DNA from: Dioscorea cayenensis subsp. rotundata
Taxonomy: Eukaryota; Streptophyta; Magnoliopsida; Dioscoreales; Dioscoreaceae
Direction: 5' to 3'
DNA length: 64,000 bases
Assembly (NCBI RefSeq): GCF_009730915.1
Contig: NC_052484.1
Span: forward strand, 992,001-1,056,000
Below, piece by piece: positions 3,896 through 53,251 of the stretch. Positions within the stretch are counted from its first letter, which is position 1, and every line of letters begins with the position of its first letter. The notes below the pieces were generated by a model that saw only the letters and a program-made list of their open reading frames with translations, was not told the origin of the DNA and made no database searches. Made by a program: the position numbers and the translations under genes.

Positions 3896-4562
3896 TTTTT
3901 ATAATGATATAGTTCATAGTTTATACTTGGAAATAAAACTATTTATTGAAAAAATGTGATATATTTACTAAACTGAAATGAACTTCATTTGTTACAAACA
4001 TCCTTATTTTGATGAAGTTCGTTTAATGTATAAATACTGTATCATTATAATTGTAGTGATACTATAGAAATATTATGTATACGAAACATAAATCAGCGTA
4101 TTTACCAATAAGATATCATTCCATATGGTAAAATTTCTAGGGGTCATTAAGCTATCTGGTACAACATCATATCTGTTTGTCTCTTTGACATCATTATATA
4201 GGGAGGAGCTAGTTCTCTTCGTCAAAATAAATAAATAAATAAATAAATAAATAAATTACATAAATAACTTCATCTTATTAAATTGAATTACATTAAAATA
4301 AATTATTATTCGGACAAAGCATATGCCATGAATAATATGAAAAATATATTTTTTTTGTCCTTAAAATAAACATTAGATATAGTTCAGATGGCAATTTCAA
4401 TAATATGAAGCCCTTAAGTGTAAATCTTGACCAAGCTTCAAGATTCGCAGTCTCTCTAATCCAACGGTTGTGATTATCTTATTAGAAAATAGAGCAATTT
4501 AAGAGAAAGATCGCACCTTTGCGGTGAACCAAAGCTGAAGAATTTCGCCAGAGAGAGCTCCA
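3320..4562. other. Intergenic, AT-rich
   Basis: Contains the AWPM-19 3' UTR, two diverged copies of a short motif (around 3548-3645 and 3680-3790), a long (TA)n tract at about 3838-3891, and an (AAAT)n tract at 4226-4255. The WDR70 promoter and leader occupy the last 200 bp or so. No further gene seen. Confidence 0.6.
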
Positions 4563-7500
4563 ATGGAGGGCGCCGGCGGCGAGCTCGACGACGAGATCCG
4601 CGCCCAGTTCCCCCTCTCGTTCGGGAAGAAGTCCGGGCGGCCACCGCCCAACTCCTCCAGTGTCCACTCCTCCACTCGCCGCGCTGTTGGCCCCGTCTCC
4701 GTGGACCGGAACCCTAACCCTAGCTCTAGTGGATCCAAGAGTCGTGATGTTCAAGAGGAGGAGGAGGAGGATGCGATGATTGGGCCTCCGCCGCCACCAC
4801 CGCAGCCGGAGGTATCACAGGATGAAGATGACCAGATGATGATTGGACCTCCCCGGGCACCGCCGCCTTCTGACCAATTGGGATCGGATGATGAGGATGA
4901 GATGGACTCCGATGATGAAGATGGACCGGAGGAGTTTCGTAGGATTCCACTCAGCAATGAGATCGTTCTCAGAGGACATTCCAAGGTACTCATAAAAATC
5001 CCATTTTTTTTTATGATATAAATTTTTTTTTTTTTAGTTCTGATGTGCTATGCATGATATTGTTCTAACAATTTCATCTTAATTTCTTGAATTGTAATAT
5101 CTGGCAAATAATCAATGAGATGGGTAGTATGCTTAGCAGTGAAGAATTTAGGAAATGGTTCTGTATTTTTTTGGTGAATGATTGTTTATATTGATTGAAT
5201 TTTAGAACTTTTTGTTGATCGTTCTTAATTTTCTTATGAGTTCTTAATGAAGTCTTGTATGTCTAGCAAATGTCCAATGTGCTATGCTTGGCAGTAGAGA
5301 ATTTAGAAATGGCTCCTTTTTCTTTTCCGTGAGCAATTGTCTATTGGGTGTTAGCACTTTTTTTCTTTATCGTTTTTCAATGTTTTATGTGAATTTATAT
5401 GTTCAATTTGGCATCTTTCAGGTTGTCTCGGCTCTTGCAATTGATCATTCAGGGTCAAGAGTTCTTACTGGAAGCTATGATTACACTGTTCGGATGTATG
5501 ACTTCCAAGGGATGAATTCCAAGTTGCAGTCATTCAGGCAGCTGGAACCATTTGAGGGTCATCAAGTTCGTAGCTTGAGTTGGAGTCCAACAGCGGATCG
5601 ATTTTTGTGTGTAACTGGCTCAGCTCAGGCCAAGGTCTCTTCTTTCATTTCATTTCAATTCATATTGTTAAAATATATATATATATATATAGAAATTGTT
5701 GCTTTAGTTTGACCAAGTATTTATATCTTCATTTCAGATTTATGACCGAGATGGCCTTACCTTAGGTGAGTTTATCAAGGGGGATATGTATATACGTGAC
5801 TTGAAAAATACAAAGGGGCACATATCTGGCTTAAGCGGTGGAGAATGGAGTCCCAAGGCAAAGGATGAAATATTGACATCCTCTGAAGATGGATCCTTGC
5901 GGATATGGGATGTCAATGAATTCAATAGTCAAAAGCAGGTCTGTGCCTGATTATTAATAAGATGCTTAGATGTTTGGTTATCTCAATTAAAGTAAAGCAA
6001 TTTGATTTATTAAAAATGTATGAACTGTTGCTTGATTTACTACCTGTTTTTTAAAGTTGTTTGTGAGAACAGTTAAAGAAGTGTTTATAATAACATGGCA
6101 GGAAGGAACCTCTGGACTCTAGAGATGCTCATGCAAATAACTATTTTAGTCTCTGTAATTGCTCTATGTATTCATGTCAAACTGATTCTTAACCTGTTTT
6201 TTGTGCCTTATTTATTGAAAATACTTACATAGAGTTTCTGTCAGTTCTGATATGGTATGAGTTGGAGCTTTCATATGAGAATACCATTACTTAGAAATTT
6301 ATGGACTGTTACATGAACAGGTCATCAAGCCAAAGCTTGCAAGGCCAGCAAGAGTTCCAGTCACTGCCTGTGCTTGGGATAATACCGGTAAACGCATTGT
6401 TGGTGGTATTGGGGATGGCTCTATTCAGGTAGCTTCATCATTCAACATGTGTTCTGTATCACATTTTGTGCCCGCTATCTATGGATATCAAAGTGATGAC
6501 TTAGTACTTGCGTTGGTATATCTTTTTTATGATTCACTGTTTTTAACTCATAATGCTTAGTTTGATTCCAATTTCGAGAAGGTTTAGTTAAACCTCATGT
6601 TTTTAATAGATTGTCATATTATAGGATATATAACCTACAATTTCTGGTTAGAGGTGGACAATGATAAAGGTCTTGCAAGTGGTAGGGTTGTGCTCAATGC
6701 ATTGCTCATTTATTTATGTTCTTCTGTTGCGGCAGATGTGGAGCATCAAACCAGGATGGGGAAGCAGACCAGATATATACGTAGACAAAGGACATGCTGA
6801 TGATATAACAGGACTCAAGTTTTCTGTCGATGGATTGCTCCTGCTGTCAAGAAGCCTTGATGGTACCTTGAAGGTAGTATGGTTTCCATTTCTTTAGTTT
6901 TCACATCTTCAAGCATAGCACATCATGCAACTGATGCTCACTTTGAGGAAGTTGTTTACATGACCAATGAAACAAAAATGCAAGTTACTGTAAATGTTGA
7001 ATTTTTCCCAGGTTTGGGATTTGCGACAAATGAAGAGTTCTCTCAAGGTCTTTGAGGATCTTCCCAATCATTATGCGCAGACAAATGCTGCTTTTAGCCC
7101 TGATGAGCAGTTAATTTTTACTGGGACCTCTATTGAGAAGGAAGGCACAAATGGAGGCATGCTCTGCTTTTTTTGACCGAAGAAAACTCGAGCTTGTATC
7201 AAGGGTTGGAATATCCTCTAAATATAGTGTTGTTCGTTGTGCCTGGCATCCGAAGATTAATCAGGTATAGATTTAGCATTATAAGTTCATGTCTTTCTTG
7301 ATGGTTAATGATAGCACATTCTTAGACTCTCAGCCAAACCTCTGTTTTTTTCCTGCAGGTCTTTTGCAACAGTCGGGGACAAGAAGGAAGGAGGGAGTCA
7401 CATACTGTATGATCCATCTATCAGTAAGAGAGGAGCACTTGTTTGCGTTGGAAGAGCTCCTCGACAAAAATCAGTTGATGATTACGAAGTGCAACCAGTT

Positions 7501-11060: not shown

Positions 11061-11094
11061 TTAGGGTTAGGGTTAGGGTTAGGGTTAGGGTTAG
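11061..11094. repeat. Short interstitial telomere-like array, (TTAGGG)5
   Basis: Five perfect TTAGGG units plus TTAG, about 190 bp upstream of the DUF946 start codon, on the strand that gives CCCTAA in the gene's own orientation. Telo-box-like promoter elements are common in plants, but the unit here is the six-base form rather than the usual plant TTTAGGG. Confidence 0.9.
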
Positions 11095-28280: not shown

Positions 28281-29280
28281 NNNNNNNNNNNNNNNNNNNN
28301 NNNNNNNNNNNNNNNNNNNNNNNNNNNNNNNNNNNNNNNNNNNNNNNNNNNNNNNNNNNNNNNNNNNNNNNNNNNNNNNNNNNNNNNNNNNNNNNNNNNN
28401 NNNNNNNNNNNNNNNNNNNNNNNNNNNNNNNNNNNNNNNNNNNNNNNNNNNNNNNNNNNNNNNNNNNNNNNNNNNNNNNNNNNNNNNNNNNNNNNNNNNN
28501 NNNNNNNNNNNNNNNNNNNNNNNNNNNNNNNNNNNNNNNNNNNNNNNNNNNNNNNNNNNNNNNNNNNNNNNNNNNNNNNNNNNNNNNNNNNNNNNNNNNN
28601 NNNNNNNNNNNNNNNNNNNNNNNNNNNNNNNNNNNNNNNNNNNNNNNNNNNNNNNNNNNNNNNNNNNNNNNNNNNNNNNNNNNNNNNNNNNNNNNNNNNN
28701 NNNNNNNNNNNNNNNNNNNNNNNNNNNNNNNNNNNNNNNNNNNNNNNNNNNNNNNNNNNNNNNNNNNNNNNNNNNNNNNNNNNNNNNNNNNNNNNNNNNN
28801 NNNNNNNNNNNNNNNNNNNNNNNNNNNNNNNNNNNNNNNNNNNNNNNNNNNNNNNNNNNNNNNNNNNNNNNNNNNNNNNNNNNNNNNNNNNNNNNNNNNN
28901 NNNNNNNNNNNNNNNNNNNNNNNNNNNNNNNNNNNNNNNNNNNNNNNNNNNNNNNNNNNNNNNNNNNNNNNNNNNNNNNNNNNNNNNNNNNNNNNNNNNN
29001 NNNNNNNNNNNNNNNNNNNNNNNNNNNNNNNNNNNNNNNNNNNNNNNNNNNNNNNNNNNNNNNNNNNNNNNNNNNNNNNNNNNNNNNNNNNNNNNNNNNN
29101 NNNNNNNNNNNNNNNNNNNNNNNNNNNNNNNNNNNNNNNNNNNNNNNNNNNNNNNNNNNNNNNNNNNNNNNNNNNNNNNNNNNNNNNNNNNNNNNNNNNN
29201 NNNNNNNNNNNNNNNNNNNNNNNNNNNNNNNNNNNNNNNNNNNNNNNNNNNNNNNNNNNNNNNNNNNNNNNNNNNNNNNN
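28281..29280. other. Assembly gap (1000 N)
   Basis: Exactly 1000 undetermined bases, a conventional placeholder; true length unknown. The ING1 upstream promoter lies against it. Any protein predicted across it is meaningless. Confidence 0.98.
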
Positions 29281-49460: not shown

Positions 49461-50570
49461 TTTTAATCATACATCCTTTTCAACAAGGGTACATAAGTAA
49501 ATACAAAATAAAAATCTTCAAAAAATCAATTTTTTTACAATCCAAGCATTGATGCAAGTTATACAACCACTAATTTATACATTAAATAAATAAACAAATA
49601 AAATAAAATCCTTCCATCTCTCCTTTATAAAACAGGAGGAGCGGAGAGAACTAACAAAACCAAGAAGAGCTTGTCAGCCACTTTGCAATTAAAAACCAGT
49701 CACCATCATCATCATTAAAAATAAAAAAATAAAAATAAAAATAAAAAAATCATACATCATTTTTAACAAGTAAATACAAAATAAAAACCTTCAAAAAAAA
49801 ATTCAATTTTTACAATCCAAGCATAATACAAGTATACAACAACTAATTTATACATTAAATAAATAAACAAATAAAATAAAACCCTTTTATCTCTCCCATA
49901 TAAAGCAGGAGCAGTAGAGAGAACCAGCAAAACCAAGAAGTGCTTGGTAACCGCTTTGCAATTAGAAACCAGCCACCACCATCATCATAAAATATATATA
50001 TATATATATATTTTAATCATACATCCTTTTTAACAAGGGTACATAAGTAAATACAAAATAAAAACATTAAAAAAATTCAAATAAAATCAAATTTTACAAT
50101 CCAAGCATTGTTACAACTTATACAACCACAAATTTATACATTAAATAAATAAAGATATAATACCCGAATTATTTTTTTTATTTTTCTTTCATCCCTCTAC
50201 TAAAAATACGCCACATTAATCTCTCTATTTTTAAAAATGATCCAATTTAGTCCCTCTACTCTTAATCTCTTCCCATTTAGTCTATTTATTCTTATAAATA
50301 TAATTAATAATTGGCCTATTTTAGAGTAAAAGAGACTAAATAGAACTATTTTTAAAAGTAAAGAGATTAGTGGACTATATTTCTGAATAAAAAAAAAAAA
50401 AAAGTAGATGGACCAATTCAGGTATTATACATTAAATAAATAAACAAATAAAATAAAACCCTTCAATCCCTCTGTATATAAAGCAGGAGCAGCAGAGAGA
50501 GAGAACCACCAAAACCAAGAAGTGTTTGGTATCCACTTTGCAATTAGAAACCAATCATCATCAACATCAT
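49461..50570 (+). promoter_or_regulatory. Triplicated core promoter / 5' leader of the TPR gene
   Basis: Three tandem copies: about 49461-49716, 49749-49989, and 50011-50153 continued at 50431-50570. Each runs TACATC-TTTT-AACAAG, ACAATCCAAGCAT, TATACATTAAATAAATAAAC, a TATAAA box (near 49626, 49899 and 50477), AGCAGGAG, AACCAAGAAG and CACTTTGCAATTA-AAACCA. The third copy directly precedes the start codon and is split by an inserted element at 50154-50430. Confidence 0.8.
50154..50430. mobile_element. MITE inserted in the third promoter copy
   Basis: A 277-bp element with inverted ends (GATATAATACC and GGTATTATAC) and a fold-back interior in which TTAGTCCCTCTACT-like arms face AAGTAAAGAGATTAGT-like arms. 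It is flanked by 14-bp direct repeats ATTAAATAAATAAA (50140-50153 and 50431-50444). Copies 1 and 2 of the promoter show the uninterrupted target, which confirms an insertion. Confidence 0.75.
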
Positions 50571-50594
50571 AAAAAATTAAAAAAAAAAAAAAAT

Positions 50595-50660
50595 ATGTTG
50601 CTGAGGAGTTCATCAACACCAATGCTCAACTCTCTCATCAATGGTGAAAGCCCTCACCAC

Positions 50661-50691
<31 letters not shown>

Positions 50692-53251
50692 ATGCTCACA
50701 TCTCCTGCAACCTCTCCTCTCCCTTCTCTGACTCCTCTCCCTCCTCCTCCTTCTCCGGAGTTCGCCGTACCCGCTCCGATGGCAACCTTCACTCTCTCCC
50801 CTCCGACCACCACCATGAATCTTCTTCCTCTTCTCGTAGATCCAACCCTATGCTTGAATCCATCCCTTCTTTCTCTGTTTACAACTCAAAGCTTCCACAA
50901 AATCTAGAAGAAGAAAAAGAGGAGGAGGATGAGAAAGATGAAGATCAGGAGGAGGTTTTGGGGATTGAAAGGGAGTTTAGTTTCTCTAGAGGTAAACAAG
51001 GTCCTTTGTTTCTTGCCCGTGGGCTTGGGATTGATAGGGTTGCTTCTGGGATGATGCTTGTGGGTGGTGGTGGTGGTGGTGGTGAGATGGTGGAAATGGA
51101 TATGTATTATAAGAAGATGGTGGATGAGGATCCAAGTAATGCTTTGGTGCTTAGGAATTATGCCAAGTTTCTCTATGAGGTGATACTTTTTTCCTTTTAT
51201 TTATTTATTTATTTTTTTGTGATTGTTTTTTGGATTTTTGGTTTTGTTTGTGGTTTTGTGGTGAGATTTTTTAAGTTTGGGGATTAGTTTTTGGAGATCA
51301 ATAGAGATGATTATTTCACATTTCCTTATTGTTGTTGTTGTTGTTGTTTTTGTTGGATTTTTGGTTTTTGTTTGCAATATTTTTGGTGAGATTTTTGTGG
51401 ATTTGGTGATCTTATTGTTTAGTTTTGTTTGCAATTAAATGATTAGATCAATTTGTTTTTGTTTGCAATTTTGTAGTGATATTTTGTCAATTTGGTGATC
51501 TTCTTCTACTATCACTTCTTCTTTCTTCTTTGGTTTTTGTTTGCAATTTTTGGTGAGATTTTTGTCAATTTGGTGATCTTATTGTTTGATTTTTGCTTGC
51601 AATATAATGATTAGTTTTCTCAAATTAGTTTTGTTCGCAATTTTGTAGTGATATTTTGTCAACTTGGTGGTCTTGTTGTTTGGTTTTGTTTGCAATTTAC
51701 TGATTAGACTTCTCAACTTGGTTTAGTTTGCAATTTTGTGATGAAGATTTTGCCAATTTGGTGATCTTGTTGTTGTTTGGTTTTGTTTGCAATTGAATAT
51801 TTAATGGTTACATTTCTTGATTTGGTTTTGTTAATTTGATGATTCTTCTTCTTCATATATTTTGTTTAAATACATGATTTTTCAAACCAAAGACCATGTT
51901 TCATTGTTTTGAGATTATAGTATACAAGCATAATAATCTCACATTCATTCACTAAACAAGCTGAATATATAACTCTAGGTCTCTTATCCTCTATTTTAAA
52001 TTTTCTTAAGTTTGAGCTTTGGTTTAATGCTTGGTAAACAGTCTAAAGGTGATCTTCCCAAAGCTAAAGAATTCTACTCAAGAGCTATATTAGCAGTGGT
52101 TTAAAGATTATAGTATATAATACTCTTAACATTCATTCACTAAACAAGCTTGAATATATAAAAGTTTAGGTCTCTTATCCTCTGTAATGGATTTGCTGTG
52201 AGTTTGAGGTTTGATTTGATGCTTGGTGAACAGACAAATGGTAATCTCCCAAAAGCCGAAGAGTACTACTCAAGAGTTTTATTATTGCAGTGCTTCTGAT
52301 ATTACAGTATATATATATATATATAATACTCTCGCATTTATTCACCATACAAGCTGAATATATAGAAGTTTAAGGTCTGTTATCCTTTGTTTTGAATTTG
52401 CTGTGAATTTGAGGTTTGATTTGATGCTTGGTAAACAGACAAATGGTAATCTTCCAAAAGCCGAAGAGTACTACTCAAGAGCTATATTACCAGTGCTTCT
52501 GATATTACAGTATATATATATATATATATATATAATACTCTCACATTTATTCACTAAACAAGCTGAATATAAGTTTAAGGTCTGTTATCCTTTGTTTTGA
52601 ATTTGCTGTGAATTTAAGGTTTGATTTGATGCTTGTAAACAGATAAAAAGTGATCTTCCGAAAGCTGAAGAATACTACTCAAGAGCTATATTAGCAGAGC
52701 CCGGAGATGGAGAGATCCTTTCACAGTATGCAAAACTAGTGTGGGAGTTGCACAAAGACGAAGAACGAGCGTGCACCTACTTCGAACAAGCAATTCAAGC
52801 CTCTCCTCATGATAGGTATAACTGATGAAAATCATTCATAATCTTATTACAATCTTATTACGACTCAAAACTATCCGAGATTATTGACTATATATCGAGT
52901 TTGCCTTCATTTTGTCATTAATCATTGAAGTTTCAATTTTTGCAACTGAACCATCAGTCCAAGTTTATGTCGAAGACTCGAAATTGTCATTTTCTTAAAG
53001 AAACTAAACTTACATATCGAAAGCCAATCTGGATTTAATCAAATTCAAAATGTAGAAGTTTTGATGATTTTAACCTTAATTAAGTTTCGAACAAAAATAT
53101 CAGTTACTGATTTGATTTGTTCATCGTCAGCCATGTTGCGGCGGCATATGCGAGCTTTTTATGGGAAACAGAAGAGGATGAAGAAGAGGGTGTGAATGAG
53201 TTCAATGGAGCACAAGTTTCTCATGGAACTTTGACTCCTGCTACTGCTTGA
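50595..53251 (+). CDS. Tetratricopeptide-repeat (TPR)-like protein
   Basis: Plant TPR-like superfamily protein of the At4g32340/At1g80130 type; cellular role unknown. Minimal gene: exons 50595-51179, 52643-52815 and 53131-53251, 879 nt giving 292 residues with no frame break. The N-terminus is low complexity (HHHNNNNNNNNHHAH, Ser-rich, then EEEKEEEDEKDEDQEE). Helical repeats follow: MYYKKMVDEDPSNALVLRNY, AKFLYE, SDLPKAEEYYSRAILAEPGD, ILSQYAKLVWELHKDEERAC, TYFEQAIQASPHD, AAAYASFLWETEEDEEEG, ending LTPATA. Before exon 52643 lie three further copies of its first 54-57 nt, at 52042, 52234 and 52439. Two of these could be spliced in frame and would add 18-residue helices. The ATG at 50595 follows a triplicated promoter. 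Confidence 0.85.
51340..51830. repeat. Degenerate minisatellite in TPR intron 1
   Basis: Repeating blocks built from GGTTTTGTTTGCAATT, GTGATATTTTGTCAA and TTGGTGATCTT(G/C)TTGTT recur at least five times with variable spacing, mostly on a T-rich strand. Confidence 0.75.
51905..52697 (+). repeat. Four tandem units of about 200 bp carrying partial TPR exon copies
   Basis: Each unit comprises TA-rich sequence, CATT(C/T)ATTCACTAAACAAGC, AGGTCT-TTATCCT, a run ending TTGATGCTTGGTAAACAG, and then an exon start. The exon copies begin at 52042, 52234, 52439 and 52643 and encode SKGDLPKAKEFYSRAILA, TNGNLPKAEEYYSRVLL, TNGNLPKAEEYYSRAILP and IKSDLPKAEEYYSRAILA. Only the fourth continues into the full exon; the first and third end at a GT after 54 nt. 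Confidence 0.85.

Follow-up and report, generated by a model that had tools for sequence, protein, structure and literature searches.

A tandem duplication across an intron–exon boundary as the probable source of four exon starts in a TPR gene

In the 64,000-nucleotide stretch of DNA analysed here (the window) a TPR gene carries the start of its second exon four times, and very probably this array arose by a tandem duplication across the boundary between intron 1 and exon 2, with the extra copies being removed as intron. The gene lies on the + strand and its three coding exons, when joined, give an open 292-residue protein that matches TPR models above the curated cut-offs of Pfam (PF25474 with 40.3 bits, cut-off 27; PF14559 with 34.2, cut-off 25; PF13428 with 27.9, cut-off 23.5). 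We take the gene to be one of the plant TPR-like superfamily genes, and judging from the motif its first intron would be located between two helices of one TPR. The gene and the array are composed of the following features:

50595..51179, + strand: coding part of exon 1, with a phase 0 end after FLYE, in an open frame with exons 2 and 3
51902..52041, + strand: intron part of unit 1 (repeat search, unit alignment)
52042..52095, + strand: copy c1 of the exon start (54 nt); the next two bases are GT here, AT at the second locus
52096..52233, + strand: intron part of unit 2 (repeat search, unit alignment)
52234..52289, + strand: copy c2 of the exon start, with its GT coming after 56 nt, frame broken
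52290..52438, + strand: intron part of unit 3, with a TA run (repeat search, unit alignment)
52439..52492, + strand: copy c3 of the exon start (54 nt), with a weak GT behind it
52493..52642, + strand: intron part of unit 4, with a TA run, up to the real acceptor
52643..52815, + strand: the real exon 2, 173 nt, with the donor GTATAA
53131..53253, + strand: coding part of exon 3 with the stop codon, in the open joined frame

The array occupies the 3' part of intron 1 and the start of exon 2 (51902–52696) and consists of four units of about 200 nt (U1 51902–52095, U2 52096–52290, U3 52291–52492 and U4 52493–52696), each being built from an intron part and about 55 nt of the exon 2 start. Tandem Repeats Finder reported 52109–52697 with a period of 205, 2.9 copies, 88% matches and a score of 860, and a repeat search found a 66-nt segment (acceptor plus exon) at 52034, 52226, 52431 and 52635, which are four copies in register with spacings of 192, 205 and 204 and 83–86% identity to the third copy. 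The description in the initial annotation of four units of about 200 bp with an exon start and an AACAG acceptor is confirmed, and its coordinates, lengths and phases were also correct, as c1 and c3 comprise 54 nt in phase 0 with a GT directly behind them, while c2 with its 56 nt breaks the frame. AACAG precedes all four copies and the acceptors are nearly identical. The phase 0 translations are SKGDLPKAKEFYSRAILA for c1 (52042–52095) and TNGNLPKAEEYYSRAILP for c3 (52439–52492), and the fourth copy (52643) is continuous with the remainder of exon 2. Among the copies the closest pairs are c2/c3 and c1/c4, and in a 69-nt intron stretch U3 and U4 are 97% alike, compared with 81% for U2 and U3. 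Such a mosaic similarity is what unequal exchange would be expected to produce. As the array is present again at a second locus (four units) and in a fragment on contig C15 (three units), it is neither a chance arrangement nor a local sequencing slip. Two other repeats are found in the same gene: the front part of intron 1 contains another tandem array (51360–51798) with periods of about 94 nt and 172 nt, and the region just 5' of the start codon (49559–50590) consists of three similar copies with about 80–86% identity, which are also present at the second locus. The triplicated region includes TATAAA with 5'-UTR-like sequence after it, and therefore the core promoter of the TPR gene appears to be triplicated as well.

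Sequence c1 and the real exon start are alike through the 55th base and then diverge, and c3 shows the same divergence point with one mismatch near the end. The repeat unit thus extends only partly through exon 2, leaving about 119 nt between its end and the real donor, so that the copies are exon starts that never inherited that donor. What supplies the GT after an extra copy is the start of the intron part of the next unit. The initial annotation had proposed a device for repeat length or alternative splicing, for which the only grounds were the 54-nt length and the phase of c1 and c3, and both of these follow from the position of the duplication breakpoint.

Donors were scored by their U1 duplex energy and by their matches to the 9-position 5' splice consensus, with the U1 end and the consensus being taken from general knowledge and 104 GTs from intron 1 serving as background. 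By energy the GTs behind c1, c2 and c3 reach −2.6, −1.4 and −1.4, values equalled or bettered by 45%, 65% and 65% of the intron GTs (n = 104). With −6.8 and −5.6, the real donors (introns 1 and 2) belong to the top 4% and 5%. The contrast is smaller by consensus matches, with 3, 3 and 4 of 9 for c1, c2 and c3 (89%, 89% and 40% of the intron GTs have as many) versus 5 of 9 for each of the real donors (16% have as many), and by this measure alone the c3 donor is not unusually poor. Against this background of 104 GTs no recognisable donor was found on the extra copies (energies from −2.6 to −1.4, 3–4 of 9 matches). Five combinations of inclusion were tested, and three of them stay in frame (c1, c3, and c1 together with c3); the other two, c2 alone and all three copies, give a truncated protein. 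Reading through a copy without using a donor leads to a stop after 20 (c1), 21 (c2) and 53 (c3) residues.

From these data the following course of events can be proposed. A short tandem duplication would have crossed the boundary between intron 1 and exon 2, its unit starting in intron 1 and taking in about the first 55 nt of exon 2, which brought along the acceptor region and left the exon 2 donor out. Unequal exchange would probably then have expanded it to four units. Since the extra copies have no good donor, the splicing machinery is unlikely to recognise them as exons. Exon 1 would most likely be joined to 52643 (51179 to 52643), as only this copy runs on into a full exon with a good donor, and intron 1 would be removed from 51180 to 52642, leaving the extra copies to decay as intron and presumably without effect.

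A search of the genome's own DNA with 51900–52820 gave four matches, including the window itself and C14:965074–965975 at 97%. The latter lies 79 kb upstream on C14 and belongs to a complete gene of 294 residues that keeps all four splice sites. There c1 is followed by AT, c3 keeps its GT and c2 again has 56 nt. As c2, c3 and the C15 copies have a GT at this position, a loss of the GT at the second locus would be the simpler reading. The number of substitutions between the two loci is 0/54 in c1, 2/57 in c2 and 1/54 in c3, compared with 0/140, 2/137, 4/142 and 3/138 in the intron parts of the four units, 0/54 in the real exon start, 1/119 in the rest of exon 2, 7/579 in exon 1, 16/716 in the front of intron 1, 3/315 in intron 2 and 2/123 in exon 3. 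A slower change of the mini-exons than of the unit intron parts was not seen (3/165 versus 9/557, Fisher p 0.74, with small counts); c1 is unchanged, yet its intron part also has no change in 140 positions.

The second locus itself probably represents the other haplotype. The region C14:948687–1020280 is enclosed by two gaps of 1000 N, and C14:948708–1020276 aligns in order with 1028130–1101018 in long blocks that are 94–98% identical, the end of the latter adjoining a third gap of 1000 N (at 1101028). The window joins both contigs, with a 1000-N gap at 28281–29280 and the pieces 1–28276 and 36130–64000. A contig whose sequence is wholly contained in the one beside it is the picture to be expected if a second haplotype had not been collapsed, and the 72-kb stretch with the second locus is probably such a haplotype, set in tandem; the alternative is a true tandem duplication, and the comparison of the two loci is valid in either case. 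In the same window a run of 5.7 TTAGGG units was reported by Tandem Repeats Finder at 11061–11094, which we take to be the vertebrate-type telomere motif, here in an apparent plant genome.

The other two matches of the DNA search are two pieces at C15:19984784–19985286 with 88% identity. This copy comprises three units and most of exon 2 (reverse strand, 4200–4720 of the inspected locus C15:19981500–19989500), and in its unit 1 an in-frame TAA interrupts the copy, while in its unit 2 the acceptor AG is changed to AA. Neither exon 1 nor exon 3 was found near it in the 19 kb inspected, where a weak 31% stretch (E 0.005) spans unaligned intron sequence. It is hence a gene fragment, and it shows the array to be older than this copy and not brand-new, but not a loss of selection in a working gene, so that the term 'recent' used in the initial annotation for a non-functional duplication needs care. 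Being a fragment for which no exon 1 or 3 was found, it is of little use as a test of constraint, as the stop and the lost acceptor tell only about age and decay. Just past its end we observed a GGCCTGTTTGGATGC-like sequence, which presumably recalls transposon ends.

The protein search gave ten matches, namely four rows for the two C14 loci, where exon 2 and exon 3 were each hit once per locus, one for the C15 fragment and five for related places on C17, C4, C9, C2126 and C18 with 36–46% identity, all of which were inspected by tblastn; both the DNA and the protein search score the best candidates only. Intron length was taken in the two closest relatives, C17 and C4; C9, C2126 and C18 align differently. 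In line with the plant TPR-like superfamily, to which the Pfam matches also point, C17 and C4 share the phase 0 intron at the site of the array, but differ in that their introns of 134 and 97 nt are too short to hold it. A processed (intronless) copy was not present among the four DNA matches, nor was one evident among the ten protein matches. Among the titles listed in literature searches none deals with this gene, which is not meant as a claim of its absence from print.

Some observations speak against copies that merely decay. In all six pairs of copies pN is lower than pS (for example 0.12 versus 0.25 for c3–c4), which also applies to the frame-breaking c2 (0.19 versus 0.43 for c2–c4), although the counts are too small to decide (Fisher p 0.36 and 0.13); this is a possible sign of constraint, of which part may come from the real exon. 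In addition, two of the three extra copies, c1 and c3, have retained their 54-nt length and open frame at both loci. The initial annotation had named changes in copy number and new stops in other accessions as a test, for which the second locus is a partial stand-in: its copy number is likewise four and c1 and c3 have remained free of stops, but one donor is lost. Together with the good acceptors and the phase 0 of c1 and c3, the open 54-nt frames and the low pN would suit cassette mini-exons, of which one or both are spliced in to lengthen helix B of the TPR by insertions of 18 residues and thereby vary the protein. We consider this very unlikely, as the donors of c1, c2 and c3 resemble background GTs, that of c1 is lost at the second locus, the mini-exons change no more slowly than the intron between the loci, and a helix B repeated without helix A would, from the known fold of the family, break the A–B alternation. 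Weak donors, donor loss and the intron-like rate of change led us to reject an alternative-splicing device as the main reading, and along with the truncation in two of the five combinations they agree with the other option of the initial annotation, a non-functional exon duplication.

The nearly identical acceptors in all four units make a stray use of an upstream one plausible, and since reading on from c1, c2 or c3 soon meets a stop, the copies might also act as decoys whose early-stop transcripts are degraded, with expression being lowered or tuned. Nothing points to such use, however, conservation beyond the background rate was not seen and any intronic copy of an AG would look alike, so that we regard decoys as very improbable. 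That the repeat was made by misassembly is hardly conceivable, even if the surroundings hold a probable false duplication on the 72-kb scale, as many substitutions and indels separate the four units, which are present at both copies of the locus and in part on C15. A duplication across the boundary, with its extra copies removed as intron, is accordingly the reading we prefer among those weighed.

Working tandem exon duplications have usable splice sites on both sides. Tandem exon duplication giving rise to alternative splicing (Kondrashov and Koonin 2001, as cited in PMC2674458) resembles the present case in that exon sequence and acceptor are repeated beside the original, but here the donor lies beyond the end of the unit, and weak GTs follow the copies. 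The array is also similar to a minisatellite-like intronic expansion, with which it shares the local arrangement, the unit of about 200 nt, TA runs of varying length, the mosaic similarity of the units and the presence of the other tandem array within the same intron, but its unit includes about 55 nt of coding sequence.

In summary the finding is an ordinary one, though correctly seen, and it provides a worked example of how a duplication that crosses a boundary leaves in-frame, exon-like pieces that can mislead gene prediction. There is a small chance that the acceptors are used at a low level, giving an 18-residue insert from c1 or c3 or truncated transcripts that are degraded, by which TPR output would be tuned, and unequally so by haplotype, as the c1 donor is lost in one of the two. 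If the copies were used in transcripts, the array would offer a simple natural test of the competition between repeated acceptors and of splicing differences between haplotypes.
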